This document shows, piece by piece, positions 2,986-42,974 of a stretch of DNA of 43,340 nucleotides (position 1 is the first letter of the stretch; each line of letters begins with the position of its first letter). The notes beneath the pieces were generated by a model that saw nothing but the letters and a program-made list of their open reading frames with translations, did not search any database and was not told the origin of the DNA. The stretch spans positions 1 through 43,340 of the IMG/VR virus record IMGVR_UViG_3300044293_000888. One strand, 5' to 3'. This stretch comes from a virus. A program made the position numbers and the translations under genes.

Positions 2986-2987
2986 GG

Positions 2988-2995: not shown

Positions 2996-2999
2996 AGAT

Positions 3000-3215: not shown

Positions 3216-3217
3216 TA

Positions 3218-3244: not shown

Positions 3245-3250
3245 ATATGA

Positions 3251-4731: not shown

Positions 4732-4744
4732 GTTAAGTAGTAAT

Positions 4745-6564: not shown

Positions 6565-6567
6565 TTC

Positions 6568-6595
6568 TTGATTTACACTGGAGCTACAATATAAT
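6568..6595 (+). promoter_or_regulatory. Sigma70-like promoter, leaderless layout
   Basis: TTGATT (6568-6573), 16 bases, TATAAT (6590-6595), then 6 bases to the ATG at 6602. Transcription should begin at or within a base of the start codon. Confidence 0.75.
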
Positions 6596-6601
6596 AATAG
6601 C

Positions 6602-7579: not shown

Positions 7580-7581
7580 AT

Positions 7582-11200: not shown

Positions 11201-12129
11201 AAAAAGTCATTTATAGCTTTTTTGTTATGTATGTGAAGATTGTAGATTGGATATTTTTCATTTTTATAGAGAACAAAAGGTTGTTTTTTATAAATTACTT
11301 CTATTTTTTCAGTAGATATCATTCTACCAATATAATGGCTAGGCTCAAAATAGCCTTTTTTGTGCCCGTTATTAGTACCACCAAGAAACTGACCGTATGA
11401 AGCAGGATCAAACAGGAAGTTAAATTCATTATAATGATTGGACAGCTCTGTAAACGGTAGACTGGGCAATAATTTAAAATACTTACTACCCCTAGAAATA
11501 ATATCTAAGAAATTCATATCCGTCAAGTAGTCTATATTAAAACCTATAGTTGCAAGAACTTGCTCTTCCCCTGCCATAAGCATTTTTACTATACGGGTAA
11601 GAAAATTTCTTCCTGAAATCCTATCTTTAAAAATCATAATACCCGGAGCTGCAACTAGTGGGGAAACCAAACTATATCCAAATTCCCCAGAAGAAATTAC
11701 ACTATTTTTAAATATCTCCTCACCACTATAGTATACTATATTATCGGCCTCTAAATGTATAATATTTGTAGTATTTAATATTTCTATAAAAATACTAACA
11801 AAGATCAATCTTAAAAAAGCGTGATACAAAAACACCTCCGTTCTATATCGCGGCCATATTGTTCTTAGTAATTCATCTACTACCTTATACTCTTCTGTAT
11901 TTAAAATCTGCTCTTCTAGGGAAATTAACATAATGTTTTCTGATATTTTATCTTTAATTTGTTGTATAATTTTTTCTTGTAAGATAAAGTAACTTTTATC
12001 AAAAAAAGCTGAATTATATTCAATAGTTTTTATATAATATTCTGGTAATGTATCGTAGCTATAGTTTTTTTTAACACTATTATTATTATTAAAATTACTA
12101 TCTATAAATGCGTAAATTAGATTACTCAT
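11197..12129 (-). CDS. Putative glycosyltransferase, GT-A type
   Basis: A 310-residue protein. A long helical N-terminal half ends in IIHLEADNIVYY, an acidic E-A-D motif that could be the metal-binding DxD of a GT-A enzyme. The C-terminal part has FLFDPASYGQFLGG followed by an acceptor-site-like YNLHIHNK ending, as in some bacterial GT-A proteins. It is the middle gene of three overlapping genes (4 bases each side) and is certainly translated. The glycosyltransferase assignment is moderate and rests on these motifs and the neighbours. Confidence 0.55.
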   Translation of the reverse strand: MSNLIYAFIDSNFNNNNSVKKNYSYDTLPEYYIKTIEYNSAFFDKSYFILQEKIIQQIKDKISENIMLISLEEQILNTEEYKVVDELLRTIWPRYRTEVFLYHAFLRLIFVSIFIEILNTTNIIHLEADNIVYYSGEEIFKNSVISSGEFGYSLVSPLVAAPGIMIFKDRISGRNFLTRIVKMLMAGEEQVLATIGFNIDYLTDMNFLDIISRGSKYFKLLPSLPFTELSNHYNEFNFLFDPASYGQFLGGTNNGHKKGYFEPSHYIGRMISTEKIEVIYKKQPFVLYKNEKYPIYNLHIHNKKAINDFL

Positions 12130-12860
12130 TGAATTATACCACGGTGATGTCTGAATAATTGCTTATATTCAGATTTATCAGTAATTAAATGGTTTCCCCA
12201 CTCTGAAGGTTCACGGGCAATAGGTAGGTCATGTTTTATACTAAGAAGCGAAAGTATAGATTGATCGTGCCTGTGTTGTCTGAAGGCAGGATAATCCGCG
12301 CCAAGCTTACTAGGCTCATCTGTGATAATATCACCGGTTTCACACCATTTTAAATATTCATTAAAAAAATCTACTGAGAAAGAATTCTTTTTTATTAAAA
12401 CATATGAACCGTCAATTTGATTCCCACTTACGTACTTATCTGTATTGCATCCCATAACTTCGAAACAGTCAAACTTTGTCCACATATCATTCTTCCATAC
12501 CGATCCATCGGAGGTACCATCCCTATTGTCAAAGAAGAGTATGCCTCTCTTGTCTTTTTTACATATCGTAAATAGTGGATTAATATCATCAACAATTAGG
12601 TTACCGCTATCAATATAAAAAACAAAATCTCCTTCCTTTACCATATCCAGAGTTTTTTTAATAATATATGGCTTCCACAGCCAGTAACCTCCCCCCCTAG
12701 ATAAACTAAAAATATGTTTATTCTTCTCTTTGAAATCACTATCAATTAGGTCCGGGGTAAACGAAGCATGTCCAGAAAAGAACGGTTTACCAGATTCGAC
12801 TAAGAGTGACTGACTACGAAAATAATTTGGAGTTGCGTAGCTAACTAGAATTTTTCTCAC
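12126..12860 (-). CDS. Glycosyltransferase, GT-A type
   Basis: A 244-residue protein starting at GTG. GGGYWLWKPYIIKKTL is a strong match to a GT-A group in which this motif precedes the DxD. FVFYIDSGN carries the putative metal-binding Asp. The C-terminal RQHRHDQSILSLL is a second hallmark of the same group (capsular-type transferases). It heads the minus-strand operon with a TTGAAA-N16-TAAAAT promoter 6 bases before the GTG. The GTG with so short an upstream region suggests a leaderless message. Confidence 0.7.
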   Translation of the reverse strand: MRKILVSYATPNYFRSQSLLVESGKPFFSGHASFTPDLIDSDFKEKNKHIFSLSRGGGYWLWKPYIIKKTLDMVKEGDFVFYIDSGNLIVDDINPLFTICKKDKRGILFFDNRDGTSDGSVWKNDMWTKFDCFEVMGCNTDKYVSGNQIDGSYVLIKKNSFSVDFFNEYLKWCETGDIITDEPSKLGADYPAFRQHRHDQSILSLLSIKHDLPIAREPSEWGNHLITDKSEYKQLFRHHRGIIQ

Positions 12861-12866
12861 AATATA

Positions 12867-12894
12867 ATTTTATATTATAATTATTGGATTTCAA
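12867..12894 (-). promoter_or_regulatory. Sigma70-like promoter of the minus-strand glycan operon
   Basis: On the minus strand: TTGAAA (12894-12889), 16 bases, TAAAAT (12872-12867), 6 bases, then the GTG start at 12860. It overlaps the divergent promoter of gene 12918. Confidence 0.65.
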
Positions 12895-12912
12895 CCATAT
12901 ACAGGTTAAAAT
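12884..12912 (+). promoter_or_regulatory. Sigma70-like promoter of gene 12918
   Basis: TTGGAT (12884-12889), 17 bases, TAAAAT (12907-12912), 5 bases, ATG 12918. The two divergent promoters share the bases around 12889, so use of one may limit use of the other. Confidence 0.5.
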
Positions 12913-12917
12913 ATCTT

Positions 12918-13784
12918 ATGGATACTAAGGTATTAGGGTTTTTAGACGGGGCTGTAGATATTCTGGAAAAATTTAAAAGCGGTGCACCACTTTGCATTGG
13001 AAAAATAGGTAATGCCGAGTTAATGTGTGCTTATAATTATTATTTTGCTCAACACCACAATCAAACACCGATACCGTGGAACCCTACAGTAGTAAAAGAA
13101 ATTTTTATAAATGCAGGGGTTTTTCCGCAAACCGAAGAGGCTAGAGTATATTTTTCGGAGCAACTGTCTGATGCAGTAGCTAATGCAGATGTAATGGCTC
13201 CATGGAATAGAGGGTTAGGAGATTTTGAGATGCGATTTATTAGAAGTAGAAACCAAAAATGTTCTTTAGTCGACTTACAATCGTTAGAGCCTTTTTATAG
13301 CGGCATACCTTGGAGTTCAGAATTAGAAAATAAAAATGTACTTGTAATAAGTCCGTTTGTTGAAACTATAAAGAAACAATACGAAAATAGAGAGAAAATA
13401 TGGGCTAATCCCAAAGTATTGCCAAAATTTAATTTGAAGACAATATATCATCCAACTAGTAAAGCTATATCTGGGGATAAGAATAGATATGTAACCTGGA
13501 AAGAAATGATTGATGATATCAAGTATCAAATGCTTAATACCGAGTTCGACATAGCGTTAATAGGAACTGGAGCATCCTCGCTACCATTAACATCTTTTGC
13601 AAAGCAAATCAAGAGACAGGCTGTACATTTGGGTGGATCATTACAGCTATTGTTCGGAATAAAAGGTAAGCGTTGGGAGCAAATGAAAATATTTGATCAT
13701 TTTTATAATAATAGTTGGACTAGACCGTCAATAGAAGAAACACCAGAAGGGTATAAATTGGTTGAAGACGGTACTTACTGGTAA
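12918..13784 (+). CDS. Putative GT-D-type glycosyltransferase
   Basis: A 288-residue protein. The early IGKIGNAEL motif (28-36) resembles the RxGDGE-like loop of GT-D enzymes (the DUF1792 group), which bind UDP-sugars there. The middle VLVISPFVETI and DIALIGTGASSLPL strands and the late HLGGSLQLLFGIKGKRW are typical of the phage/bacterial GT-D-like relatives. It stands alone on the plus strand with its own promoter and overlaps the convergent gene by 10 bases. Confidence 0.6.
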   Translation: MDTKVLGFLDGAVDILEKFKSGAPLCIGKIGNAELMCAYNYYFAQHHNQTPIPWNPTVVKEIFINAGVFPQTEEARVYFSEQLSDAVANADVMAPWNRGLGDFEMRFIRSRNQKCSLVDLQSLEPFYSGIPWSSELENKNVLVISPFVETIKKQYENREKIWANPKVLPKFNLKTIYHPTSKAISGDKNRYVTWKEMIDDIKYQMLNTEFDIALIGTGASSLPLTSFAKQIKRQAVHLGGSLQLLFGIKGKRWEQMKIFDHFYNNSWTRPSIEETPEGYKLVEDGTYW

Positions 13785-14662
13785 CCTGCAGCCTGTAGAT
13801 ACTGCATTGTTAGTTTTTTCTGAAAATCTTCGTAAGACCAGTAATTATTCTTAAACCATTCATCATTAAAATACATTTTTTCTAGCTCTGCTTCATTAGG
13901 ATGAGGCTGCCAGTAATTAGCACCCGGTCTAACTAAGAGAACATTAAACAAATAGTTGTGCCACATATCTACATCAAATTTACAAGGCTTCCAGTATAAA
14001 CTATTATTATAATCATTATCATAATTTTCATACTGAGATCCACCACCGTGTTTTATGTGAAATGTAGGCGGTGGCCAACCATTTACAAACTTCGATACAC
14101 CATGTCTAAGACAAAGAGTAGCATAGTGAACATCCCAACATGGATGGCCTAGAATATAATTAGGAAACTTAGACGAGTGCTCTTTCCACCAGCTTGTCTT
14201 TATAATAAATGTATCAAAGCCTGCTACCTGATAATGATCACCAGTTATAGGGTCTGTTAAAGTAAAAATATTTTCTATAGCAAGACGGCTTACTGGCCAG
14301 GAGTCAAGATCTGTTTCAAGGAAGTATTTTATTAGTCGATCAGATATAATGATATCATCGTTAGTAAAAGCGAAATATTCATACTTTAATTCGGTCAACC
14401 TATCAAAAATCTCTCGCATTAATGGTATAGTTCTAGTAGATTCAGGAACATATGTTTTATTGGATTCTTTGAGTACATGTAGGGGCTTAAACGAAGGATG
14501 CTCCCGTCCAACTATACTTTTATCTTCGAACTGTATATTATACAAATCTATAGTATCTGGGTATTTTTCCTTAATTTTTAGAAGTGAATCTACACACAAG
14601 TCAGTGCGGTTTGTTTTGCCAAACAAATTTACACCAAGTGCTATCTTCTTATTTTGTGGCAT
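13775..14662 (-). CDS. Glycosyltransferase, GT-A type
   Basis: A 295-residue protein. An N-terminal strand (KIALGVNLFG) leads to FAFTNDDIII at about 118-127, where NDD is the likely DxD metal site. GWPPPTFHIKHGGG near 212 supplies the His expected after the acceptor loop. It is Trp/Tyr-rich, as in carbohydrate-binding proteins. It overlaps the upstream guaC-like gene by 14 bases, so the two are translated together. The donor and acceptor are unknown. Confidence 0.65.
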   Translation of the reverse strand: MPQNKKIALGVNLFGKTNRTDLCVDSLLKIKEKYPDTIDLYNIQFEDKSIVGREHPSFKPLHVLKESNKTYVPESTRTIPLMREIFDRLTELKYEYFAFTNDDIIISDRLIKYFLETDLDSWPVSRLAIENIFTLTDPITGDHYQVAGFDTFIIKTSWWKEHSSKFPNYILGHPCWDVHYATLCLRHGVSKFVNGWPPPTFHIKHGGGSQYENYDNDYNNSLYWKPCKFDVDMWHNYLFNVLLVRPGANYWQPHPNEAELEKMYFNDEWFKNNYWSYEDFQKKLTMQYLQAAGYQ

Positions 14663-15614
14663 AAAAATTGTTATAACCTTTCAAGTCTTTTAATGTAGTG
14701 CCACCGCAATAACTGATTGCTGAGGAAAGATCTTGACAAAGCTCTTCATATTTCTGAGCATAGGAAAGTGTATTTTGAGGAATTTTTTTCAGAGTACCCT
14801 CAATATGACATGTATCATTTTTATTGTATTCTGAAGCAGAGCCAAAATATAATTTATAGCTCTGCCCATCAGGACCTAAGAAGGTGTCCGAAGGACTGTC
14901 TTTGCATTCTGCAAATAGCGATCCACACATAACCATGGAAGCACCTGCAACAATAGCTTTAGCTATATCTCCATTACACTTTACACCACCATCGGCGATA
15001 ATGGGAAGCTTTACACCAGAGCCCGCTATGTCATGTATACAAGTAAACATAGGCACTGTGAACCCGGTTTTGTCTTTTGTCGTACATGCATTACCTTGAC
15101 CGATGCCGACCTTGATTGCATTTGCACCTGCTAATTCAAGATCTATTGCTGCTTCTGCAGTTGCAATATTACCTGCAATAATAAATGTTTTTGATAAATT
15201 ATCTTTAATATATTTGATCATATCTAATACTTGTAGAGAGTGCCCGTGCGCTATATCTATAGTAATATAATCTACCCCAATATTATTTTCCTTTATATGC
15301 TTAATTAAGAGTTTATCTTCGTTTTTTACCCCAACACTTATTGAAATATAGTATCCACTCTCTAAAGCCTCATTTATAAAGTTTATATTATTATCAAACC
15401 TATGCATAATATAGAAGTAACCACTTTGTGCCAATTGTTGAGCTAATTTATGATCAATGGTACACTTCATATTTGACGGTATGACTGGTGATTGAAATGT
15501 ACGTGAACCTAGGTGAATATTAGTATCCGCTTTTGATCGGGAAATTAAATGACCGCGCTGTGGTACTAGACAGATATCTGAATAATGATAGGCTCTTTTA
15601 ATCTCTTTTTGCAT
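14649..15614 (-). CDS. guaC: GMP reductase (IMPDH/GMPR family)
   Basis: A 321-residue TIM-barrel enzyme, close to the usual length for GMP reductase (about 345) and lacking the CBS domains of IMP dehydrogenase. Key parts are YSDICLVPQRG near the start, VDYITIDIAHGH, the catalytic loop GIGQGNACTTKDKTG with Cys177 and the following Thr-Thr, and the phosphate-binding IIADGG (205-210). CTTK/KTG after the Cys favours GMP reductase, which converts GMP to IMP with NADPH. Its place between glycosyltransferase genes is odd. It could adjust guanine nucleotide pools for GDP-sugars or for the deazaguanine pathway. Confidence 0.85.
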   Translation of the reverse strand: MQKEIKRAYHYSDICLVPQRGHLISRSKADTNIHLGSRTFQSPVIPSNMKCTIDHKLAQQLAQSGYFYIMHRFDNNINFINEALESGYYISISVGVKNEDKLLIKHIKENNIGVDYITIDIAHGHSLQVLDMIKYIKDNLSKTFIIAGNIATAEAAIDLELAGANAIKVGIGQGNACTTKDKTGFTVPMFTCIHDIAGSGVKLPIIADGGVKCNGDIAKAIVAGASMVMCGSLFAECKDSPSDTFLGPDGQSYKLYFGSASEYNKNDTCHIEGTLKKIPQNTLSYAQKYEELCQDLSSAISYCGGTTLKDLKGYNNFYATK

Positions 15615-16407
15615 GAAACCTTTGTATATCTTTTAAGATACGCTTTACTTTTTTTTCTTCCATATCTGGTACACAACCTTGCCATGCAGGTAAATACCCA
15701 TGTTTGTTCTTGAAAAGCATTACACCGTGTTCAATATTCTTTCGCCAGTCATCTCTTGGTCGTATTGCACTACTTCTTTCTGAACACTCAATTTCATCTA
15801 GATAATCAATACTATCTGCTATATCAGGGAAATGCCAATATGGAGCCCCCATACCTACTTTAAAAATTTTATAGTCATGATCTACATGTTCAAATGCATT
15901 AGTATAATCCTCATCAATTAAACCAGCTTTTTCGAGTACTTGCTTGCTATAGTAGCAAAACGCACCAACACTATGTGCATTAAACGCAATGTTTATATCT
16001 CCATAATTTATAATATATCTAGGTTTAGGAGCACCACCCGATACTCCTCCTTTATTTGCAGGCCCATGATATCCGAAATTAAAATGCTGTATACCGGTAA
16101 TATCTTTAGCTCGGATATACTCGTTAAATACATTTTCGTTCTTTACAATTATATCATCTTCTACTAAAAATAAATCTGTACAACCTTTATCGAGAAGATA
16201 TCTTAAAGCTTTATTTTTTGATTTACCAACGCCAAGATTAACTTCATTATGCAAATATTTAAAAGTCCTGTCTGTCAATAACTTCCTCCAATCTTCAAAA
16301 TCGGAACCGTCGTTTACAACGACTAATTCAACGTTCTTAGGTATTGACCTAAAACATTTTAGAAAGAATTGAGGTCTATTACAGGTTATAATACCAACAC
16401 CAATCAC
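15598..16407 (-). CDS. Glycosyltransferase, GT2
   Basis: A 269-residue protein starting at GTG. It opens with VGIITCNRP (3-11), the first strand of GT2 enzymes, then VVVNDGS (29-35) for nucleotide binding and a DLFLVEDDIIV segment (78-88) with the metal-binding EDD. AFEHVDHDYKIF fits the catalytic ED.E/HxD region. It would be an inverting transferase using a UDP- or dTDP-sugar. It heads the operon with guaC and the GT-A gene, with a TATAAT 6 bases before the GTG. Confidence 0.8.
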   Translation of the reverse strand: MIGVGIITCNRPQFFLKCFRSIPKNVELVVVNDGSDFEDWRKLLTDRTFKYLHNEVNLGVGKSKNKALRYLLDKGCTDLFLVEDDIIVKNENVFNEYIRAKDITGIQHFNFGYHGPANKGGVSGGAPKPRYIINYGDINIAFNAHSVGAFCYYSKQVLEKAGLIDEDYTNAFEHVDHDYKIFKVGMGAPYWHFPDIADSIDYLDEIECSERSSAIRPRDDWRKNIEHGVMLFKNKHGYLPAWQGCVPDMEEKKVKRILKDIQRFHAKRD

Positions 16408-17525: not shown

Positions 17526-17533
17526 TATTTATT
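17526..17533 (-). promoter_or_regulatory. Late promoter of gene 17281-17520
   Basis: Minus-strand AATAAATA, 5 bases before the ATG at 17520, overlapping the stop of the upstream kinase gene. Confidence 0.6.
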
Positions 17534-18224
17534 ACAATATACCCTTTTCCTTTGCAGCGATACCCTTTTGCTCACGTAATAAACGCTCCATCTTTGCTAT
17601 TTCGTCCATATCTACCAAGCTTTGCTCTTCACCGTACATATCACCTTCTGTAGTTACATACATAGAAATTTGCTTTAATCTCTCTTCGACCGTACCTGTT
17701 ACTTCTATTAATGCGGGGCTGTCGTTAAGGGGAAAGAATGGCGAACCTGCTACTGAAAGTTGTGCTTGAATTGCGCGAAAAATATTATCTGTTTCTGTAA
17801 TAAAATCGGGATCTGTTTCGCGACTATTATTATCTTTTATTGGACCCATTAAATCTCGCGTACTTAAAAAAACTATATCTAAATATCTCATACTTTCACG
17901 CACTATTTCAATACAATCATCAACAAATTGTCTATTAAACCCCTTCTTGCCCTTCTCATGACACCACAGGGTATAAACAATATTATCCAAACCACAGCGA
18001 TCATATACAACTTTATCATGCGGGGTACATTGTTTTTGCTGATTGAGCATAAATTCTAAGATAGACTTTTGCAATTTTTTATCTGTTTTTTTACTATGAT
18101 TATTCTCTGTTATTAAGCTTCTATATGTAGGTTGTGGTAATCTATACGTTGGCCACTTCCTAAGAAATGCGTTTAATGTTGTCGTTTTACCTGTACAAGC
18201 TGCGCCGCTAAATGCTATTCGCAT
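17532..18224 (-). CDS. P-loop kinase/ATPase, NadR-like (AAA_28 type)
   Basis: A 230-residue protein. GAACTGKTTT (7-16) is a Walker A motif directly after a first hydrophobic strand. VVYDRCGLDNIVYT provides the DR lid/substrate motif of NadR- and deoxynucleotide-kinase-like proteins, and DIVFLSTRD is the following strand with Asp. It probably phosphorylates a nucleotide, nucleoside or ribosylnicotinamide. A nicotinamide link would fit the HxGH nucleotidyltransferase at 26656, but the substrate cannot be read from sequence. It has a TTGATA-N16-TAATAT promoter. Confidence 0.7.
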   Translation of the reverse strand: MRIAFSGAACTGKTTTLNAFLRKWPTYRLPQPTYRSLITENNHSKKTDKKLQKSILEFMLNQQKQCTPHDKVVYDRCGLDNIVYTLWCHEKGKKGFNRQFVDDCIEIVRESMRYLDIVFLSTRDLMGPIKDNNSRETDPDFITETDNIFRAIQAQLSVAGSPFFPLNDSPALIEVTGTVEERLKQISMYVTTEGDMYGEEQSLVDMDEIAKMERLLREQKGIAAKEKGIL

Positions 18225-19423: not shown

Positions 19424-20173
19424 TTATACCTTTAGAGCTTTATCCCAAATAACAAGCTGTAATCTTGGGCTAAAATTAAAATTATACTTCTTACATAATT
19501 CGGCCACTAAACCAGCCTTTTCTGTATGTTCCTGTCTACTACCGCAACAAGGCATTAACCACACACGATTAGGCGGTATCAAAACGTCCGGATGATTTAT
19601 ATACTTCTCAAATACCTCATCTAAATCTTTTTGCTCACTTATTACAAATTTGAACCCTGAATTATTATTTACATGCCACCTTAATACTGTTGGTTTATAT
19701 CTTTTTTCTTCAGGATCTCCATTATTTGAAAGCTTAGGAGATGTTGTAAAAGTAGCAACATAGACTTTTCTCCATTCTTCATCAGGCATAATTGTTGCAT
19801 TAGTCTCGAAATCAATATCTGGAATAAAACCGAACCGCTTTGCAAACTCTCTCACTAAATCGAGTAAAGCCTTTTGTTGAATTAAAGGTTCACCACCGGT
19901 TATCTTCCAGATTGCTTTATTTCTTAAATGATTTACAAACGATTCCTTTTCTAGCAAATCTAATATTTCACCTACAGTTAGTCTATTCTTTACAGACCAA
20001 CTCACAAAACTATCACATCCATGCGGTGAGTCTGCAGATGCAAACCCCCTACACGTTAGATTACACATAGAAAGACGCATGAAAACTGAAGGTTTACCAA
20101 TATATTCACCCTCTCCTTCTATAGTATAAAAAATCTTATCATCACTCAAATATATTACTGTATCTAAAGGCAT
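19424..20173 (-). CDS. queE: 7-carboxy-7-deazaguanine synthase (radical SAM)
   Basis: A 249-residue radical-SAM enzyme that turns 6-carboxytetrahydropterin into 7-carboxy-7-deazaguanine, the third step to preQ0. FYTIEGEGEYIGKPSVFMRLSMCNLTC is the QueE N-terminal signature. GGEP (93-96) binds SAM. The iron-sulfur cysteines are unusual: Cys37-x3-Cys41, then no Cys at the normal +2 position (Phe44) and the next Cys at 53. The motif is thus C-x3-C-x11-C, with an inserted loop, instead of C-x3-C-x2-C. Some QueE variants also carry inserted loops. It has its own leaderless-type promoter. Confidence 0.88.
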   Translation of the reverse strand: MPLDTVIYLSDDKIFYTIEGEGEYIGKPSVFMRLSMCNLTCRGFASADSPHGCDSFVSWSVKNRLTVGEILDLLEKESFVNHLRNKAIWKITGGEPLIQQKALLDLVREFAKRFGFIPDIDFETNATIMPDEEWRKVYVATFTTSPKLSNNGDPEEKRYKPTVLRWHVNNNSGFKFVISEQKDLDEVFEKYINHPDVLIPPNRVWLMPCCGSRQEHTEKAGLVAELCKKYNFNFSPRLQLVIWDKALKV

Positions 20174-20251: not shown

Positions 20252-20989
20252 ATGTCAAAGAAAGACAGAGCGGCTCGAAAAGCCGTCAAGATTGAAGATA
20301 AGTTTATAAAATCTGATATTCTTCTTAATTTTAAGATAGATCAAAAATTTCATCTAAACGATCATCACAAGCAATTTATTGAAAGAGCATTAAAAGAAGA
20401 GAATAATATAATTTTTGCTGACGGCCCGGCGGGCAGCTCAAAGACTTATCTGGTTGTTTTCGTAGCATTAACACTCTTAAAAGAAAAAAAAGCTGATGAA
20501 ATAGTTTACATAAGAAGTATTGTTGAATCTGCATCCCGTAAATTAGGTAGCTTACCTGGTGAAGTAGATGAAAAATTTAAACCATGGAGCATACCTTTGG
20601 TTGAAAAGTGTGACGAACTTGTTGGAAAGCAAGTAACAAATGTTTTATTTGATAATGAATATCTAAAGTGTATACCTGTTAATTTTTTAAGGGGATCTAC
20701 CTTTGCTAACAATGTTGTTATAGTAGATGAAGCACAAAACCTAGAACATAATGAATTAGTAACTATCTTAACAAGATTTGGTAAAAATTGTAAGCTATTT
20801 GTTATAGGTGATTCTCAGCAGTCAGATATACCGAAATCAGGTTTTCAGGGATTTATAAAGGCTTTTAGTACACCAGATAGTACAGAGCACGGCATAGACT
20901 GCTTTCATTTTACCGAAGAAGATATTACTAGAAGTAAGCTACTTAAGTTTATTGTAGGCGTAATAAAGAAAATTAAGCTCCCCAACTAG
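20252..20989 (+). CDS. phoH: PhoH-like P-loop ATPase
   Basis: A 245-residue member of the PhoH family, common in marine phages. Residues 58-65 (GPAGSSKT) form the Walker A loop, with Ser-Ser in place of the usual Thr-Gly. Next come SIVESASRKLGSLPGEVDEKF, a strong PhoH signature, then NVVIVDEAQN (Walker B) and LFVIGDSQQSD. The biochemical role of phage PhoH is not settled; ATPase and RNA-related roles have been proposed. The basic N-terminal 20 residues are extra. It lies between queE and queD and overlaps the convergent queD by 17 bases. Confidence 0.9.
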   Translation: MSKKDRAARKAVKIEDKFIKSDILLNFKIDQKFHLNDHHKQFIERALKEENNIIFADGPAGSSKTYLVVFVALTLLKEKKADEIVYIRSIVESASRKLGSLPGEVDEKFKPWSIPLVEKCDELVGKQVTNVLFDNEYLKCIPVNFLRGSTFANNVVIVDEAQNLEHNELVTILTRFGKNCKLFVIGDSQQSDIPKSGFQGFIKAFSTPDSTEHGIDCFHFTEEDITRSKLLKFIVGVIKKIKLPN

Positions 20990-21644
20990 TCCCACCAAAC
21001 GGATTGCCCCAGCCAGTAGTTATTTTATTACCCACAGCAGCTCCTGATTCAACCGCTTTTTGAATTTCTGAAGCAGGTGCAGCCACTGTATTAGCAATTG
21101 GGGCATGCTCTAAAGGCTGTACGGTTGTTTCTGTTTTATTAAAGTTAAATTCAAATTGATCTGCACTATATTTTTGTTGCGAGTCATTAATATCTGATCT
21201 CTGCATTGTACAGATAGCAGAGTTTTTCTCATGTTCCCATACTTCGACTCGTTCAACCCAGCATCTACCATTGGTAATATTCTTACAGTAATCATTAGCT
21301 GCCGTAAAACACCATTCTGCAGTTCGCTCTATACCAACACCGTTTTTCATAATACGTAAATCGAGAGCTCCAAGCTTATGAAGCTGCTGAAAATGTGATA
21401 GTAATGGATCATCCCCAGCAACACAAAATGTATGATCAAATTGCTTTTGCAGAATATTCTTTAGATCGTTTAACCCGCCAAAGTCCACTACCCAGTTTTT
21501 ATTATCCAAGCTCTTACAGCCAAACCAAAACTTTGCTTGTAATCTATAGCCATGAATAAACTTACAATGACTATGCTCGGCCTTCCATTGTCTAAATGCA
21601 CATGAACCTAACTCAATAATTTTTGTACTTTGAAATGATATCAT
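20973..21644 (-). CDS. queD: 6-carboxy-tetrahydropterin synthase with C-terminal extension
   Basis: A 223-residue protein; the enzyme core is residues 1-140. The zinc and catalytic sites are visible: His24, His26, Cys27 and His31 in HSHCKFIHGY, Asp/His in FDHT (69-72), and a later acidic EVWEHE. QueD converts dihydroneopterin triphosphate into 6-carboxy-tetrahydropterin, the second step of preQ0 synthesis. Residues about 150-223 are an extra, low-complexity tail (Gln/Ala/Thr, ending GGTSWGA) not found in short QueD enzymes. A promoter with its -10 at 21650-21655 ends 5 bases before the ATG, and a 9-bp inverted repeat covers this site. Confidence 0.88.
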   Translation of the reverse strand: MISFQSTKIIELGSCAFRQWKAEHSHCKFIHGYRLQAKFWFGCKSLDNKNWVVDFGGLNDLKNILQKQFDHTFCVAGDDPLLSHFQQLHKLGALDLRIMKNGVGIERTAEWCFTAANDYCKNITNGRCWVERVEVWEHEKNSAICTMQRSDINDSQQKYSADQFEFNFNKTETTVQPLEHAPIANTVAAPASEIQKAVESGAAVGNKITTGWGNPFGGTSWGA

Positions 21645-21799: not shown

Positions 21800-21994
21800 A
21801 CCTTCTTTAAAAAACTTCTCTAAAAGGTTGTTTACTACATCATCAAAACTCTCTTTCTTTAGAAACTTCTTAATCTCCTTTTCAGGCATCTCTTTTGCAG
21901 CTTTCTTTGCACAACCTGTTACACCAGATTGACCTTTCTTAGCACCCATTACAGCACCAAAAAACTTTTTTTGCTTCTCTGATTTTGCTGACAT
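21779..21994 (-). CDS. DUF3008-like small basic protein, truncated by tandem duplication
   Basis: A 71-residue protein. The start SAKSEKQKKFFGAVMGAKKG, followed by AKKAAKEMPEKEIKKF, is typical of the DUF3008 family found in many T4-like phages (SKxQQKFMG.V, then K-rich helix). Function is unknown. The C terminus normally could have continued for 25 Cys-rich residues; a 20-bp duplication stops it after LEKS. The start codon overlaps the stop of the upstream structural-type gene, so both are on one late message. Confidence 0.75.
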   Translation of the reverse strand: MSAKSEKQKKFFGAVMGAKKGQSGVTGCAKKAAKEMPEKEIKKFLKKESFDDVVNNLLEKFFKEGITLEKS

Positions 21995-23304
21995 TATATA
22001 TTTTCCTTGATGAATTGTATCAAACTTTTCAAGTTATTTAGTTTATCTGCTAAGGGTTTTTTAACGAATTCCTCATCATGTTTTAAATTAGTGAACGCCG
22101 TCTCAATGTCGGATAACTTATTTTTATCATACTTGCTAAGATCTGATGCAAAAGACATTACTATATCATTATATATAGGTTGTTTTAAAGCTTGCTTTAT
22201 TTCATCTGGACCCAGTGCAGCACTTAGTAGATTGTTTGCTAGTAATATAAAGGCAATACCTTTTTTACTTTCGGACGACTCATCTGGTATACCGTATCTT
22301 AATACCCTTGCCTCCCAACCATTAGGTCCCAGAAAAATACGTGCTAAACTAAACCTTTTTTTACCGTCTTTAAAATTAAAAATTACCTTTCCAGTTTTAG
22401 TTGAATTGTTTATAATAGAGAAATCTAGCATTGCTGAAGCTAAATCTTTGATCGGCGGCTCTAAGTTTGTAATGATATACTTCACTCCATCAGAAGTATA
22501 ATTTATACCTGTAACTTTTCCCTTAATTTGATACTTTTGTTCCTCTGTTTTAACATATTTTAATGTAGGTAATCCATAGATATAAACTGGTACATCTTGG
22601 TATGGAAGAACTGGGTAGTCTTTTGATTTTAATTTTAAATTTTTTAAATTTATAAGATCGTTTACATCAAAAGTTTTTAAGAATCTTGTCAACCTACCTA
22701 TAATATTTTTATCTCTATCAAACAGTAATTCACTAGTAGTAGAAAGTGCTTTGTCGAAAATAGATAAACCCTTCTCAAGACTTTTTAAGAATTTTTTATT
22801 CTTACTTTCCGGTTTTCCAAATGTGTAATCTAACGATATTTGATCTTTATCAGGTGTAGTAGAGGAAGTAAGGTCACTAGCTTCAGCAAATATTGCTAGC
22901 TCTTCAGGCTTAATACCGGCTTGATCTAGAAAAGTCTTTACAAACTCTGGATTGTTAGTATTCTTTATTTGATTAAAGACTGGCGTGCCCTCATTAAAAC
23001 CAGCTTTTAATAATGCTTTCAGCAACATGGTTTTTAGCTCTTCGTATGAATGAGGTTTATTCAAAGTAACCGGTTGAGGTATTTCTTCAATCCTCGCAAT
23101 ACTTACAGTTTGAAGAGGATCTACATTTGGTGGGGCATTAATTATATATACACTAAGTTTATTACCGCATTCTTCTAATATATAGCCCTCGAAATGAGTT
23201 ACATTTTCATAACCAAAGACAGGTGGAATAGAGGGATCTGATTTAACTCTAACCTTTCTAAGTCTTATATTTTTTAGTGTATTTTCTATTAATTGATTTA
23301 GCAT
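21994..23304 (-). CDS. Large late protein of unknown function
   Basis: A 436-residue protein of mixed alpha/beta composition, with many Lys, Asn and Leu residues. It has no signal, membrane segment, Cys cluster or nucleotide-binding motif. The N terminus (MLNQLIENTLKNIRLRK) is amphipathic. Residues about 120-190 are a Ser/Thr/Asp/Lys-rich flexible stretch. A GATAAATA late-like octamer lies 14 bases upstream. It is followed by the DUF3008-like gene, a pairing seen in late regions of T4-like phages. It is probably a virion protein, but I cannot identify it. Confidence 0.7.
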   Translation of the reverse strand: MLNQLIENTLKNIRLRKVRVKSDPSIPPVFGYENVTHFEGYILEECGNKLSVYIINAPPNVDPLQTVSIARIEEIPQPVTLNKPHSYEELKTMLLKALLKAGFNEGTPVFNQIKNTNNPEFVKTFLDQAGIKPEELAIFAEASDLTSSTTPDKDQISLDYTFGKPESKNKKFLKSLEKGLSIFDKALSTTSELLFDRDKNIIGRLTRFLKTFDVNDLINLKNLKLKSKDYPVLPYQDVPVYIYGLPTLKYVKTEEQKYQIKGKVTGINYTSDGVKYIITNLEPPIKDLASAMLDFSIINNSTKTGKVIFNFKDGKKRFSLARIFLGPNGWEARVLRYGIPDESSESKKGIAFILLANNLLSAALGPDEIKQALKQPIYNDIVMSFASDLSKYDKNKLSDIETAFTNLKHDEEFVKKPLADKLNNLKSLIQFIKENI

Positions 23305-23359: not shown

Positions 23360-24016
23360 ATGCTTAAGAAACGTAATTTACCCTTTGCAAATCATAATCA
23401 CCCTACAACAGAAGAAGAGAGGAAAGATATTATAGAAAGAGCCGCTAAAGCGTATGAAGTATATATGGACGCATTAGGGTATGATTGGCGAAATGATCCT
23501 AACTCTAGTAATACCCCTTATAGAGTTGCAAAAGCATTTGTAGAAGACTTTGCATGGGGTTGCTATAGTACCTCACCTAAGATTACAGCCTTTGAGAATG
23601 TTGATAAATATGATGGTATTGTTGCCCAAAATAATATCAAAGTTACATCTCTTTGTTCTCATCATCACGCACCCTTTACTGGTTTTGCCCATGTTGCGTA
23701 TATACCTTCCAAGAACGGTAAAGTGATTGGGTTAAGTAAGCTTAATAGAATTGTAGATTGGTTTTCTCGTCGACCTCAAGTACAAGAAAATCTTACTATG
23801 CAGATTCACGATTATATAAATGAAGTTTGTGAAAAAAATAATGGTGTTGCAGTTATGATTGAAGCAGGTCACACGTGTTGTTCGAATAGAGGAATTAGAC
23901 ACGATTCAACAATGAGAACTGCTAGAATGTCTGGTGCATTTCTCGATAATAAAGATAATTCCCGAGCTGAGTTCTATAAGTTTGTAGAGTTTGCACAGAA
24001 CCGTAAATTGACCTGA
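23360..24016 (+). CDS. folE: GTP cyclohydrolase I
   Basis: A 218-residue enzyme that opens GTP to dihydroneopterin triphosphate. This is the first step of both folate and preQ0 synthesis; with queD, queE and queC present, preQ0 is the likely use. NTPYRVAKAFVED (51-63) is the family substrate region. Zinc ligands are Cys99 and His102/103 in SLCSHHHAPF, where Ser replaces the usual Glu, and Cys173/174 in HTCCSNRGIRHDS. GLSKLNRIVDWFSRRPQVQE is the highly conserved core. It has its own promoter. It is followed by an ATG-less frame at 24038. Confidence 0.93.
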   Translation: MLKKRNLPFANHNHPTTEEERKDIIERAAKAYEVYMDALGYDWRNDPNSSNTPYRVAKAFVEDFAWGCYSTSPKITAFENVDKYDGIVAQNNIKVTSLCSHHHAPFTGFAHVAYIPSKNGKVIGLSKLNRIVDWFSRRPQVQENLTMQIHDYINEVCEKNNGVAVMIEAGHTCCSNRGIRHDSTMRTARMSGAFLDNKDNSRAEFYKFVEFAQNRKLT

Positions 24017-24778: not shown

Positions 24779-25333
24779 ATGAGCAGAAAGTCAGAATTAG
24801 TCAAATTATCAGAAGCCTATAATGAAGTTGTAGTTAATGAGCTAAGTATTAGTCCTGCTGCAGAAACTACAAATATGGTACCATCGACAACTACACCAAC
24901 AATATTAAAGATAAGCGATACTGCTAAGCCTGAAAATTGTGAAGATATGTCAGATGTAAGTAATGATGAGTCTGACGCTAACATGGCTAAAAATGAACTC
25001 TACAAACTGCACAAAGGTGCAAAAGAATTATACAACATTATACAAGATGGGGAAAATTTAGAACCTTGGGTTTTTAGTAAAATTACTCTTGCTGCAAGTT
25101 ATATTGAAAGTGTAAAGAACTATCTTGAATATAATAAATTTAAAAAGCAAGGTGAATTCAATTCAGAACAAGATGCGCATGAATATAAAATAGTTTCTAG
25201 AATTCGCGATATGTTACACGGTGAAAGTAAAGACGTCTTAGAAAGTGTATTGCGCCAAACAATTTTTAATCTCGAAGCTATTAATGCAATAAATGAAGAT
25301 AAAAAATTAAATACGTCTTCCGCCACCAACTAA
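24779..25333 (+). CDS. T4-like virion-associated protein
   Basis: A 184-residue acidic protein. After a Thr/Pro/Ser-rich linker (about 25-60), it has a helical segment MAKNELYKLHKGAKELYNIIQDGENLEPWVFSKITLAASYIESVKNYLEY split over residues about 69-118. This follows a pattern common to head-associated proteins of T4-like cyanophages and relatives (MAKxEL..L...A..L......LE.WV..KIT.AA.YI.SV..YL). The N-terminal LVKLSEAYNEV may be a short targeting peptide. A late octamer precedes it. The exact role in the head is unknown. Confidence 0.7.
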   Translation: MSRKSELVKLSEAYNEVVVNELSISPAAETTNMVPSTTTPTILKISDTAKPENCEDMSDVSNDESDANMAKNELYKLHKGAKELYNIIQDGENLEPWVFSKITLAASYIESVKNYLEYNKFKKQGEFNSEQDAHEYKIVSRIRDMLHGESKDVLESVLRQTIFNLEAINAINEDKKLNTSSATN

Positions 25334-26659
25334 TCTATTCATTTTTGTAAAATCTACTCTATCTACTATTTTAACCTGATTGTTGCCTAAGAACAATACA
25401 AAACCTTCATCTTTAGTTTTAGTGTATGAACCATCCGCTAGCCTGAAAAAAGCATTGGCAGTTAGTTTGGAATCTAAATGAGATAATATTTCAATTATAA
25501 TATACTTTATTTTCACCATTTGAAAAGTTGCTTGCAATAGATTTATAAAACTTATTTGGTTCTGTTCTAAAAAGGCAAGATAACTCAGGACTTTTTGATC
25601 CCTTACACTTTTACCCTTAGCGGTAAGCTCTTCTATTCCTTTAGATAATCTTTGCTTTACAAATTCCTTAAACCCTTTATAAAAATTAGATACATTAAAA
25701 GATGAGCCAGTTTTAGCAGCACCAAATATTCCACTATTCTCCAAGTCAACCTGTTTATTTAAATAAATCTTTAACATTAGTACTATCTGAGAGGTAGGGG
25801 AGCCAGCGCTTGGGTTAGCATATTCTTTATCAAATATACTATCTATGTTGTTAATATATGTTGTTGCTATAGAAAGAGATTTTTCTATATCTGCTATGGT
25901 TTTATCCGAAATATCAAACGAAACATCTCTGTAATTACTGCTTTGAATAAATGCCTTGCTATTTTTACTACTTTGAATTAATGAACTAATATCCTTACCA
26001 GCAGGCCGTAATTTAATGTTACCCTTTGACGTAGAAACCCCTTTAAAAGAATCATGTACAACCACGCCAACATTACTGTTTAGAACCTTATGAAAGATAG
26101 GAGACTTTTCATCCATCGGAACCGCATATAAAATAGTATTAGGTTCGAAAGCTAAATACTCTTCATTACCTATTTTAATTCTTTTTTTATCTTCATTTGA
26201 CGTATATAGTACGTCGCCTTGATATATTTTACCTGAACCATCATATGCTTGCGAAAGATTAACTAAAAGACTTTTAAGTTTTTTTGCTAATTCTGGCTTT
26301 TCAGCAAACGCGTTATTTATTTCTTCATCATTGTGCATTAATTTTGCATTTTCTTTTATTTCGTCTTTTTGTTCATCTATTACATATTTTAACGCTACAA
26401 AAAAAACACCTTTTTGAAACTTAGGATCATAACCAAACAGTATCGACGGTGAACCGTCAATCTTAGCATTTATCTCTTGTTCAGATTCAAAACCTTTAAC
26501 TTTATTCACCATTTGAGATACTTGCATAACAAAATCATTAAAACCTGCTTTACCTTTTTCTATAGCTAAATCTTCTAAATGCGATAGATGCGAAGAAAAA
26601 TAATTACCATTTTCTAGTAGAATATTGTTACCTGTAATATACGTTTTAAACGGAATCAT
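25307..26659 (-). CDS. Putative ligase/nucleotidyltransferase-like virion protein (DUF6267-like)
   Basis: A 450-residue protein. The N terminus MIPFKTYITGNNILLEN looks like a capsid-targeting peptide ending in an LLE cleavage site. Residues 64-71 (NAKIDGSP) fit motif I of the DNA/RNA ligase superfamily (KxDGS), with Lys66 as the possible adenylated residue, and FVALKYV and EYLAFEPNTILYAVP may be later strands. The layout resembles the DUF6267 proteins of T4-like phages as I recall them. Function is unproven: it could be a true ligase, an RNA-modifying enzyme, or an inactive relative. It overlaps the upstream gene by 4 bases. Confidence 0.6.
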   Translation of the reverse strand: MIPFKTYITGNNILLENGNYFSSHLSHLEDLAIEKGKAGFNDFVMQVSQMVNKVKGFESEQEINAKIDGSPSILFGYDPKFQKGVFFVALKYVIDEQKDEIKENAKLMHNDEEINNAFAEKPELAKKLKSLLVNLSQAYDGSGKIYQGDVLYTSNEDKKRIKIGNEEYLAFEPNTILYAVPMDEKSPIFHKVLNSNVGVVVHDSFKGVSTSKGNIKLRPAGKDISSLIQSSKNSKAFIQSSNYRDVSFDISDKTIADIEKSLSIATTYINNIDSIFDKEYANPSAGSPTSQIVLMLKIYLNKQVDLENSGIFGAAKTGSSFNVSNFYKGFKEFVKQRLSKGIEELTAKGKSVRDQKVLSYLAFLEQNQISFINLLQATFQMVKIKYIIIEILSHLDSKLTANAFFRLADGSYTKTKDEGFVLFLGNNQVKIVDRVDFTKMNRLVGGGRRI

Positions 26660-27282
26660 TTTTTAAGTCTTTTAAATATTTCTAATTTAATATTTTCCGG
26701 TATATTAGGAAGAAAGTTCATAAATGTTTTTTGTTTATTAGACTTAAGCGCAGCTCTAACAGCAGTAGATGAGGTAAGTCTGGATACTCCCTTAATATCT
26801 ATTTCAGATACACTTTTACCTGTGTAAATATTTTTTGATGGGCCATGGAAAGCATTGAATCTGTCTTTATCCTCTTCACTAGAATAAAGATTAATTTTAT
26901 ATGGTGTAGCTAACCCTAACAAATTATCTGCAATTTCTTTTGCTCTTGGTAAAGGTGCTAAAATTTTTTGAGTTGCGGTAAACTTACCGTTATTTAAAAT
27001 GTCAATTATTTGATAAATGTTAAGAACTGGTGATCCTTGAATTGTATAGATGTAGAGATTTTTTGGAAGAAACGGCTTGTACAAGTTCCATATTTGAAAA
27101 GAGTCATCAGATGTAATGCCTTCTCTGTCTATACTAGATACTAAAACCACCGCTACACCATTAGTGGTTGCCGCCTGTTTTGCAGTATCGAAATGTCCCT
27201 TATGAGGTGGTTTAAATGCACCAGGGAAAAAGCCGATTGTCGTACCGCTTTGTTCTAATAAAAAATGCTTAAAAGGCTTCAT
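26656..27282 (-). CDS. HxGH nucleotidyltransferase with capsid-targeting-like N terminus
   Basis: A 208-residue protein. Residues 1-11 (MKPFKHFLLEQ) match the T4 capsid-targeting pattern with an LLE|Q site. FFPGAFKPPHKGH (18-30) is the HxGH active loop of the cytidylyltransferase/NMN-adenylyltransferase superfamily. SRLTSSTAVRAAL (166-178) is the second signature (ISSTxxR), with Arg175. It could join a nucleotide to NMN, pantetheine phosphate or a polyol phosphate. With the NadR-like kinase at 17532, an NAD-salvage role is possible. Overlaps of 1 and 4 bases place it in a four-gene late message. Confidence 0.72.
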   Translation of the reverse strand: MKPFKHFLLEQSGTTIGFFPGAFKPPHKGHFDTAKQAATTNGVAVVLVSSIDREGITSDDSFQIWNLYKPFLPKNLYIYTIQGSPVLNIYQIIDILNNGKFTATQKILAPLPRAKEIADNLLGLATPYKINLYSSEEDKDRFNAFHGPSKNIYTGKSVSEIDIKGVSRLTSSTAVRAALKSNKQKTFMNFLPNIPENIKLEIFKRLKK

Positions 27283-40121: not shown

Positions 40122-40475
40122 ATGAGTAATATTATTGTGTTTGTAAATCATGTCGGTCAAACTGTAATTGCTGAGCAAGTCTCAGATAATGCAAACAGTC
40201 TTGTCGTGAAGAACCCAGCTGTACTTCATGTAACTCCCAATCAAACGGGTCAATTGCAGGTTCAGTTAATTCCGCTGTTTTTCAAGGAATTTATTGAAGA
40301 AGCTACTCGTAACGATGGATCTGTTTTTACCTTTAGTAAGAACAGTATAGTTACATCTGCAGTCAAGCTCGAGCCTAAGATTAGTGAGCAGTATGTTAGG
40401 ATCTTTACACCTGCAAAGCCAGTAAATGAAGGCAAAGGTAAAGATGCTCCAGTAATCAAGTTGTTTGATGAATAA
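40122..40475 (+). CDS. Conserved T4-like phage protein of unknown function
   Basis: A 117-residue beta-rich protein. The start IIVFVNHVGQTVIAEQV, followed by SLVVKNPAVLHVTPNQTG and QVQLIPLFFKEF, is a pattern found in small proteins next to uvsX in T4-like marine phages, and the alternating short strands look like an Sm/LSm-type barrel. That would suit RNA or DNA binding. It overlaps uvsX by 1 base and is first in the operon with uvsX, queC and the amidotransferase. The function is unknown. Confidence 0.7.
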   Translation: MSNIIVFVNHVGQTVIAEQVSDNANSLVVKNPAVLHVTPNQTGQLQVQLIPLFFKEFIEEATRNDGSVFTFSKNSIVTSAVKLEPKISEQYVRIFTPAKPVNEGKGKDAPVIKLFDE

Positions 40476-41557
40476 TGAAGCAAGACGACATTATTTCAAA
40501 AGCGTTCAAGTCGCTCGATGCTCTAAACCCTGAAGCCACGTTTTTATCAGAGAATGCATTATGTAATGTAGATACCTGGTATGATACTGGTTGCTATGCG
40601 TTAAATGCAATTGTTTCCGGAAGGCTAAAGGATGGCGGGGTACCCAAGGGTCGTATTGTTATTTTTGCTGGCCCCTCGCAGACCGGTAAAACCTTACTTG
40701 TCAATAAAATCCTTGGACTTGCTCAAAAGAAGGGTATAGTTCCGGTAATATTTGATACGGAGTTTGCCATCGATAAAACTACAACAGCAGGTGTTGGTCT
40801 TGATCCAGATAAAACAAAATATGTCCCTGTGTATACTATTGAAAATGCACGTAATCAAATTAGTACATTTCTAGATAGTATTATCGAGAATAATCTACAA
40901 GGTAAGTTCATTATTAGTTTAGACAGTCTAGGTAATCTTGCCGGTAGTAAGGAGGTTATGGACGTTGAGAAGGACAAGAGTGCAGCTGATATGGGTACGC
41001 GTGCAAAAGGCTTGAAGAGTATGCTACGTCTTCTAACTTACAAGGCCGGAAGGGCAGGCGTTACAATTCTAATGACTAACCATACGTATAGTGATCCTGC
41101 ATCGTTATATCCTTCTTTAGTGCAGAATCAAAGCGGCGGCAGTGGACCTCTTTATATGGCTAGTGTTATTGTTCAGCTAGCTAAAAAGAATGAAAAGCAA
41201 GAGAATGAAGATGAGGCTATCCTGCCGGAAGCGAGAAATTATAACGGAGTTACATTGAGAGCATTAACTGTAAAGAATCGCTTTGTTCCACCGTTCTTAG
41301 AAGCTAATATTAATTTAAATTATTTAACTGGTCTCGACAAATATAGTGGTTTGTTAGAGATGGCTGTTAACCATGGTTTGATTATTCAAACTGGTTCTAC
41401 TTACACCAAACCAGACGGTACTAAGCTTGGATATGCAAAGAACTTCGTCAAAGATAAGAAGTTTTTTGATGAACTTATCCCATTGTTAGATAAAAAGCTT
41501 GAAACCGCGTACAAATATGGAAATGTATCTGGCGAGGTTGTAAGTGAAAAAGAGTAG
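40475..41557 (+). CDS. uvsX: UvsX recombinase (RecA-like)
   Basis: A 360-residue recombinase, close to T4 UvsX (391). FAGPSQTGKT is the Walker A motif, VIFDTEFAI has the catalytic Glu, and FIISLDSLGNLA is Walker B. MGTRAKGLKSMLR and TILMTNHTYSDP with a Gly-rich loop (NQSGGSG) match the DNA-binding L1/L2 region. It forms filaments on single-stranded DNA for strand exchange, helped by UvsY. Its end overlaps the queC-like gene by 14 bases, joining recombination and base-modification genes in one message. Confidence 0.95.
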   Translation: MKQDDIISKAFKSLDALNPEATFLSENALCNVDTWYDTGCYALNAIVSGRLKDGGVPKGRIVIFAGPSQTGKTLLVNKILGLAQKKGIVPVIFDTEFAIDKTTTAGVGLDPDKTKYVPVYTIENARNQISTFLDSIIENNLQGKFIISLDSLGNLAGSKEVMDVEKDKSAADMGTRAKGLKSMLRLLTYKAGRAGVTILMTNHTYSDPASLYPSLVQNQSGGSGPLYMASVIVQLAKKNEKQENEDEAILPEARNYNGVTLRALTVKNRFVPPFLEANINLNYLTGLDKYSGLLEMAVNHGLIIQTGSTYTKPDGTKLGYAKNFVKDKKFFDELIPLLDKKLETAYKYGNVSGEVVSEKE

Positions 41558-42287
41558 AGTAGTAGTTCCTATCTCTGGCGGTATGGATAGTACCGTTATA
41601 TTATACAAAGCTGCAGAGCAATTTGGTGCCGAAAATGTTTACGGGCTATCTTATGATTACGGTCAACGCCACAAAAGAGAACTTGGACTGGCTGAGTATC
41701 ATGTCAATAGGATAAAGATAAAAGAGTGGCAAACAATAGATACATCTTTTATAAGGAATCTTGCACCTACAAGTAGTCTTACGAACGATGACATAGAGAC
41801 CCCGGATATAAGAAAGATTGCAGGTGAGGCGCAACCGAAATCATATGTTCCAAATAGAAATATGATTTTTTTAAGTATTGCGGCATCATACGCTGAAGCT
41901 GTAGAAGCTAAGATAGTATATCACGGAGCAACAAAAGTCGACAGCCTTGCTGGTTATTGGGATGCAAGCCCTGAGTTCCTACCAACAATTAATGATGTTT
42001 TAGCCCTTAACAGAAGTACAAGAATTGTTATTGAAGCGCCGTTAATCGAAATGGATAAGGCCGATATTATTAAAGAGGGTATTAGACTAAAAGTATACTT
42101 TAGTAAGACGTATACTTGTTATAGTGGAGAGGATTTGTGTGATGCTAATTCTCCTAGCAGTGCATTACGTATTAAAGGCTTTGCTAACGCAGGGTATATA
42201 GACCCTATTCCTTACAAACAAGACTTATCTAAGGTATGGTCAAAATATAATTGTAGATTAATAGACTACGATACTTATAATAATTAA
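41544..42287 (+). CDS. queC: QueC-like protein (7-cyano-7-deazaguanine synthase family) lacking two zinc cysteines
   Basis: A 247-residue PP-loop ATPase. SGGMDST (11-17) binds ATP; YGLSYDYGQRHKREL and YVPNRNMIFLSIA are strong QueC signatures. QueC makes preQ0 from 7-carboxy-7-deazaguanine and ammonia. The C-terminal zinc site is unusual: Cys192 (in TYTCYSG) and Cys199 remain, but the usual following C-x2-C pair is replaced (CDANSPSSALRIKGF), leaving two of four cysteines. The TAA is followed at once by the ATG of a glutamine amidotransferase gene. This pair resembles a split Gat-QueC, which makes archaeosine-type bases. Confidence 0.88.
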   Translation: MKKSRVVVPISGGMDSTVILYKAAEQFGAENVYGLSYDYGQRHKRELGLAEYHVNRIKIKEWQTIDTSFIRNLAPTSSLTNDDIETPDIRKIAGEAQPKSYVPNRNMIFLSIAASYAEAVEAKIVYHGATKVDSLAGYWDASPEFLPTINDVLALNRSTRIVIEAPLIEMDKADIIKEGIRLKVYFSKTYTCYSGEDLCDANSPSSALRIKGFANAGYIDPIPYKQDLSKVWSKYNCRLIDYDTYNN

Positions 42288-42974
42288 ATGTGTGGTGTCT
42301 TCGGATCAAATGATAAAGAGAGATTTTTAACGCTATATAATTTGAATCGTAAGCGTGGTACGTTTTCTACCTCACTAGTTATATATACTACGACAGGTGA
42401 TATGGTTGTACATAGATGGAGTGGTACTATAGGTATTAAAGAAGCTAGAAAGGAATTAGAAAAAAGTCTAGATAATAAATCCACCCCCTACTTTTATCTT
42501 GGACACACACAAGCACCTACATCATCAAAAAGAAAATTCTCTCGCGAGACTTCCCATCCATTTAATTCTAATAACTGGCTTGTTGCACACAATGGTGTTC
42601 TTACAAATTTTGATGACATTAAAACTGAATTTGCCCCTAAATGGACAAACCCTGTAGATTCAAGTATAATACCCTATGTCTTAGACAAAGTATATGAAGC
42701 AGGCGATGGTCAATTATCACCTTTAGAGTGTATAGTAAATGGTTTATCTCTACTACAGGGCACTTTTGGGGTATGGATAGCTAATGCATCTAACCGTGGG
42801 CTATATCTAGCTAGATGTGGTAGTACCTTATTTGCTAATTTGATCGATAATGATTTTAGTAGTGTTGAGTTTGATTCTAGCGAACCTTTGGATGAGGGTG
42901 TTGTTTATGAAGTGACACAAGAGGGTTTAACGTCTGTAGCTAATTTTGATTTTAACAGTCCGTTTTTTACTTAG
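42288..42974 (+). CDS. Class II glutamine amidotransferase, stand-alone, partner of the QueC-like protein
   Basis: A 228-residue Ntn-type amidotransferase. Cys2 after Met is the nucleophile, exposed when Met is removed. YLGHTQAP (70-77) and AHNGVLTNFDD (100-110) are the glutamine-binding and oxyanion motifs (Asn102-Gly103). NPVDSSIIPY holds the substrate Asp. It has no synthetase, isomerase or PRPP domain, so it must give ammonia to a partner. The gene starts at the base after the queC stop. QueC normally uses free ammonia, while Gat-QueC couples exactly this kind of domain to preQ0 amidation. The 3' end overlaps the convergent gene. Confidence 0.85.
   Translation: MCGVFGSNDKERFLTLYNLNRKRGTFSTSLVIYTTTGDMVVHRWSGTIGIKEARKELEKSLDNKSTPYFYLGHTQAPTSSKRKFSRETSHPFNSNNWLVAHNGVLTNFDDIKTEFAPKWTNPVDSSIIPYVLDKVYEAGDGQLSPLECIVNGLSLLQGTFGVWIANASNRGLYLARCGSTLFANLIDNDFSSVEFDSSEPLDEGVVYEVTQEGLTSVANFDFNSPFFT

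Follow-up and report, generated by a model that had tools for sequence, protein, structure and literature searches.

A QueC-family protein of an apparently zinc-free type and a stand-alone class II glutamine amidotransferase (GAT), encoded back to back in a T4-like phage, probably form a glutamine-fed pair that makes preQ0 for a preQ1 or formyl-preQ1 DNA base and not for archaeosine. The stretch of DNA analysed (the window, 43,340 bases) is a whole IMG/VR virus record and a fragment of a larger phage genome, whose T4-like identity is indicated by a family B DNA polymerase, UvsX, and gp46/47-like and late sigma genes. The relevant features are:

41544–42287, + strand: QueC-family ATP-pyrophosphatase, predicted zinc-free variant (motifs, profiles, AlphaFold model)
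42117–42161, + strand: degenerate zinc motif, C192 with D200, S203 and S206 (alignment with relatives)
42288–42974, + strand: stand-alone class II (N-terminal nucleophile) glutamine amidotransferase, GAT, proposed ammonia donor of QueC
40475–41557, + strand: UvsX/RecA-like recombinase, upstream gene in the same operon as QueC and GAT
19424–20173, − strand: QueE-like radical SAM enzyme (QueE PHROG match, 2.9e-44)
20973–21644, − strand: QueD-like 6-carboxytetrahydropterin synthase with a C-terminal extension (passes the Pfam cut-off)
23360–24016, + strand: FolE, GTP cyclohydrolase I (passes the Pfam cut-off)
14649–15614, − strand: GMP reductase (in relatives often inside the transglycosylase/formyltransferase/QueF cluster)
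17532–18224, − strand: P-loop nucleotide-kinase-like protein (AAA_28, thymidylate-kinase PHROG)

The QueC reading frame starts with GTG and overlaps the end of uvsX by 14 nt. GAT follows as a separate reading frame, with exactly 0 nt between the QueC stop and the GAT start, which confirms the zero-spaced pair in the uvsX operon described in the initial annotation. Within the window lineage, more than 30 loci retain the zero spacing. In IMG/VR, GAT accompanies QueC at 37 of the 40 loci without the zinc site and at 38 of the 39 with it. The spacing and the counts confirm that the association is more than chance. The amidotransferase goes with QueC rather than with sugar-related genes. The two genes are 0.6–2.1 kb apart in loci L036–L043 and L058–L067. 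In one locus (L068) the gene order is reversed, with GAT ahead of QueC.

Descriptions of QueC present it as a zinc enzyme with ammonia as a substrate. The window protein matches the Pfam QueC family (PF06508; 6e-52, 176.6 bits, cut-off 22) and passes the TIGR00364 QueC equivalog (163.9 bits, cut-off 150.3). Its AlphaFold model (pLDDT 90.6) has the QueC structures 2pg3 and 3bl5 as top Foldseek matches. The motifs SGGMDS, YGQRHKRE, VPNRN, and TCY are kept. A 2026 family study reported YxQxHxxE, VPxRN, the Y of YPDC, and the Y after the first Cys as important active-site motifs (PMC13329287); all are intact in the window protein except YPDC, which reads YWDA, with the essential Tyr and Asp kept and Pro and Cys changed. 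The retained Tyr/Asp pair reads the 7-deazaguanine ring in QueC-family enzymes (PMC13279940). Trp is general within the YWD subgroup of QueC, and the last position is variable (Cys, Thr, Ala, or Gly). The window protein thus shares with canonical QueC (E. coli, B. subtilis; 2pg3, 3bl5) the fold, SGGxDS, YxQxHxxE, VPxRN, the aromatic-D substrate site, TCY, and the TIGR00364 pass, but differs in having D-x2-S-x2-S at three of the four zinc ligands, YWDA in place of YPDC, and a dedicated glutamine amidotransferase partner. By its sequence, it is a predicted zinc-free variant of QueC and not a canonical QueC.

The zinc motif of the window protein is C-x7-D-x2-S-x2-S in place of C-x7-C-x2-C-x2-C. 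When 47 relatives are aligned, zinc-bearing and zinc-free sequences span the same number of residues from C192 through R209, which places D200, S203, and S206 at ligand positions 2–4. C199 misses the register by one residue, and most relatives have Ala, Ser, or Pro there. Therefore, the altered zinc site noted before is real, but of its four cysteines a single one, C192, survives, and not two. Over 86 sequences, positions 2–4 are CCC in 45, DSS in 36, DTS in 3, and STS in 2; intermediate states do not occur. Within the window lineage, all zinc-free sequences fall into a single clade (21 rows, support 100/99). In its sister group the zinc site is intact and GAT already lies beside QueC, indicating that pairing with GAT preceded zinc loss. 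The same D-x2-S-x2-S is also found elsewhere in sequence space, in Flavobacterium phage immuto_2-6A and contig L052. The long branch of the immuto QueC makes its tree position uncertain. Loss of the zinc site does not strictly go together with GAT, since GAT is not adjacent in immuto.

GAT scores above the Pfam cut-off for GATase_6; its best PDB match is the glutaminase domain of glucosamine-6-phosphate synthase (GFAT). It begins with Met-Cys and keeps HNG and Asp124. Cys2, H73, H101-N102-G103, and D124 are invariant columns among 25 aligned relatives, and Cys is at position 2 in all GAT sequences inspected. These motifs identify GAT as a class II glutamine amidotransferase that is predicted to release ammonia from glutamine. 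Where GFAT has HTRWAT, GAT has HTQAPT; as Gln replaces Arg, glutamine binding by GAT may differ.

The genes for FolE, QueD, and QueE were also correctly recognized in the window earlier, as their Pfam and PHROG matches confirm. A 436-residue protein next to FolE (21994–23304) was considered as a DpdA2 candidate and rejected, having no profile match. Elsewhere in the window, the gene for a DUF6267 protein (25307–26659, − strand) adjoins that for a nucleotidyltransferase-like protein (26656–27282, − strand).

The QueC+GAT pair is also encoded by KVP40 (KVP40.0124/0125), nt-1 (VPFG_00172/00173), pf16 (gp78/77), and related phages; in L002–L006 (the known Vibrio and Pseudomonas phages KVP40, nt-1, K566, pf16, and 2.275.O) the GAT beside QueC is mostly annotated as a hypothetical protein. 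These Schizotequatrovirus-type phages (KVP40, nt-1, pf16) resemble the window in both proteins, their order and adjacency, and the 7-deazaguanine operons, but keep the four zinc cysteines. The same likeness and the same difference apply to the QueC and stand-alone GAT of Chloroflexi and Methylococcaceae, in which the operons read QueF-QueC-GAT-QueD-QueE (Chloroflexi, L270) and QueD-QueE-QueC-GAT (Methylococcaceae, L266). In the bacterial loci L266, L270, L274, and L289, a YWDT-type QueC with an intact zinc site has a stand-alone GAT directly 3′ of it, in queuosine operons. The bacterial pair looks like an undescribed glutamine-dependent QueC. Because bacteria with the pair are expected to make queuosine and not archaeosine, the simplest role that GAT could have in all these settings is to supply ammonia. 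Vibrio phage 6E35.1a (H42/H105) carries the pair and QueF, and its DNA contains 15% dPreQ1 (PMC12028318). The DNA of nt-1 contains mostly dPreQ0, along with dG+ at a trace level (0.02% of Gs; PMC6884629).

The window is colinear with a relative of 229,717 bases (G001) at 154–183 kb, with identities of 93% for UvsX, 88% for QueC, 86% for the polymerase, and 69% for GAT. G001 and two other relatives (G008 and G011) have a separate cluster that encodes a 268-residue protein, a PurN-like formyltransferase (PF00551), a nucleotide-kinase-like protein, and a bimodular QueF carrying a SNCRVTSQPDWGD stretch. The 268-residue protein is 46% identical to a Campylobacter phage CP220 protein and 41% identical to the annotated DNA guanine transglycosylase of immuto. 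Its model (pLDDT 91.7) has the TGT fold, with TGT as the best Foldseek match (E 1.4e-8, probability 1.00). It is matched by neither PF01702 nor the DpdA2 profile; a PF01702 (TGT) search of 19 related records gave no match, and DpdA2 of the nt-1/pf16 type is found only in pf16-like relatives. An early idea, insertion of the base without a transglycosylase, was dropped, since the QueF neighbourhood holds this TGT-fold protein outside both profiles. A search for DpdA/TGT, which the initial annotation had proposed, is negative within the 43 kb window, where QueF and the formyltransferase are not found either, and positive in all six records of at least 190 kb with the QueC+GAT pair, each of which has the TGT-fold transglycosylase.

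Among the 80 nearest transglycosylase loci, QueF is nearby in 76 and the formyltransferase in 65. All four zinc-free records with the transglycosylase (G001, G003, G006, and G008) also have full-length QueF and the formyltransferase, whereas the zinc-bearing records are split both ways. In G014–G018, G029, and G033, which are zinc-bearing, have the pair and the transglycosylase, and include several fragments, QueF and the formyltransferase were not found, and their DNA base may differ from that of other relatives. The lack of a detected QueF in G014–G018 indicates that the end product varies among relatives. G011, also zinc-bearing, has a second, short QueF-family protein (171 residues, 50982–51494) and a second formyltransferase (48404–48694). 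The order transglycosylase-formyltransferase-kinase-QueF recurs in immuto_2-6A, which shares D-x2-S-x2-S with the window but has no GAT beside QueC, has lost the first Cys too, keeps YPDC, and has a family A DNA polymerase.

Cui et al. are said to have described, in 2023, a transglycosylase subfamily (DpdA3) that allows complete guanine replacement and a predicted dPreQ1 formyltransferase (DpdN) that would make formyl-dPreQ1. The cluster in the relatives of the window fits this pathway closely, except that the pathway is not known to include GAT or a zinc-free QueC. This fit, together with the dPreQ1 of 6E35.1a and the dPreQ0 of nt-1, predicts preQ1 or formyl-preQ1 in the window phage.

Two further genes of the window have counterparts in or near such clusters. 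The gene at 14649–15614 was first labelled IMP dehydrogenase, but GMP reductase is a better fit. A homologue lies near the transglycosylase in 29 of the 80 loci, and in G001 the homologue (49% identity) is within the transglycosylase cluster. In the window the gene lies between two glycosyltransferase genes, the G001 counterparts of which are directly adjacent; the gene has thus moved or been gained. We speculate that, as base exchange frees guanine, conversion of GMP to IMP might dispose of guanine after salvage. The surrounding region (1521–16407) holds many glycosyltransferase and sugar-nucleotide genes (GT10 fucosyltransferase, GDP-mannose dehydratase-like, RmlD-like) and is colinear with G001 in part only. 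The kinase-like protein at 17532–18224 belongs to the same broad family as the kinase beside QueF in relatives, a weak link to the pathway.

In the preferred reading, FolE, QueD, and QueE would make 7-carboxy-7-deazaguanine (CDG). GAT would hydrolyse glutamine via its N-terminal cysteine and hand the ammonia to the QueC-like subunit, which would use ATP to convert CDG to the amide and then to the nitrile preQ0, the two polypeptides acting as one glutamine-dependent preQ0 synthase. The zinc knuckle would have been swapped for the conserved D-x2-S-x2-S with the active-site motifs preserved. Outside the 43 kb fragment, QueF would convert preQ0 to preQ1, which the PurN-like formyltransferase would then formylate to formyl-preQ1, and a DNA guanine transglycosylase of the DpdA type would insert the base. 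Because the window is a fragment without the genes for these last steps, we infer them from the colinear relatives, by analogy with which the window phage most likely encodes QueF, the formyltransferase, and the transglycosylase beyond the fragment. Ammonia channelling and the order of the later steps are put forward as the likeliest course. Full-length QueF needs preQ0. Since the zinc-free records have full-length QueF, zinc-free QueC should still form the nitrile.

Alternatively, zinc-free QueC and GAT could be an ADG synthase that stops at the amide, with dADG as the DNA base and QueF silent or acting elsewhere. CP220, which has a transglycosylase of the same family, lends this some colour, as all its Gs are reported to be replaced by dADG (cited in PMC8306585). 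However, the QueC of CP220 keeps all four zinc cysteines, indicating that zinc loss does not track dADG; given that report, zinc loss is ruled out as a mark of the amide product. In addition, CP220 gives no QueF match, whereas full-length QueF is present in the zinc-less records holding the cluster, and immuto, zinc-free, has QueF too. An ADG synthase is therefore unlikely.

The initial annotation took the pair for a split Gat-QueC-like one and the base for a possible archaeosine type. In phage 9g, a fused Gat-QueC and DpdA make dG+ (PMC6884629), and the Gat domain of 9g is recognized by the GAT profile (37.8 bits; hhalign probability 97%). Fused Gat-QueC (9g, NP1, PSTCR4, PhiXhv-12, and archaea) resembles the window pair in that class II amidotransferase and QueC domains work together, but it is a single chain with Gat first. 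The four phage proteins have full zinc sites and YPDN or YADR and form one clade of their own (100/99), and a tree forced to unite them with the window clade is rejected (AU test, p = 0.0037; the test covered these four and did not include archaeal Gat-QueC). The GAT profile scores higher on glucosamine-6-phosphate synthase (66 bits), and far higher on bacterial QueC-paired GATs (107–130 bits), than on 9g. The QueF of bacteria with the pair and the dPreQ1 of 6E35.1a also argue against archaeosine. The trace dG+ of nt-1, a phage with the pair, is credited to an ArcS homologue in the main text of the 2019 survey (PMC6884629), in which no mention of the nt-1 GAT was found. We thus consider it quite improbable that a split Gat-QueC, or GAT and QueC acting on preQ0, makes archaeosine for the phage DNA. 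Of the proposed shift of QueC to amidation, the amidation is kept, but as ammonia supply to QueC. A Bacillus phage BSTP12 protein annotated as GATase/QueC was set aside, having 223 residues and no amidotransferase domain.

The pair might also serve only to raise host queuosine in tRNA, as suggested for phages with preQ0 genes but without DpdA (PMC6884629), and no transglycosylase is found within the window. However, the TGT-fold transglycosylase in six of six large records with the pair, which PF01702 does not match and which has relatives among the proteins of modified-DNA phages, makes this very unlikely. A protein-modifying role, in which QueC would attach 7-deazaguanine to a partner in the manner of QatC/Cap9 defence systems and GAT would be acceptor or regulator, is hardly credible: QueC-family enzymes can modify partner proteins (PMC13279940), GAT is tightly linked to QueC, and there is a weak match to the PADLOC QueC model, but GAT keeps an amidotransferase active site and starts with Met-Cys instead of the N-terminal glycine of QatB, and the full preQ0 pathway is present.

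A preQ0 synthase feeding a preQ1-type base is thus preferred, and the earlier placement of the pair in a phage 7-deazaguanine DNA-modification route stands. The chances are about even that the pair represents a distinct, undescribed two-subunit, glutamine-dependent, zinc-free preQ0 synthase, in which C-x2-C-x2-C changes to D-x2-S-x2-S as a unit, across large T4-like phages of aquatic habitats, in whose DNA a preQ1-derived base probably takes the place of many or all guanines. We found no description of a glutamine-dependent preQ0 synthase in the accessible literature; it is signalled by GAT in Vibrio phages and in bacterial queuosine operons. The zinc site has been exchanged in an all-or-none manner more than once, in two or more separate sequence lineages, and this recurrence makes it possible to test what the zinc of QueC does. 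The predicted DNA base is re-assigned from archaeosine to the preQ1 type, which alters the LC-MS target, and such a base suggests that G-containing restriction sites of these phages are shielded.
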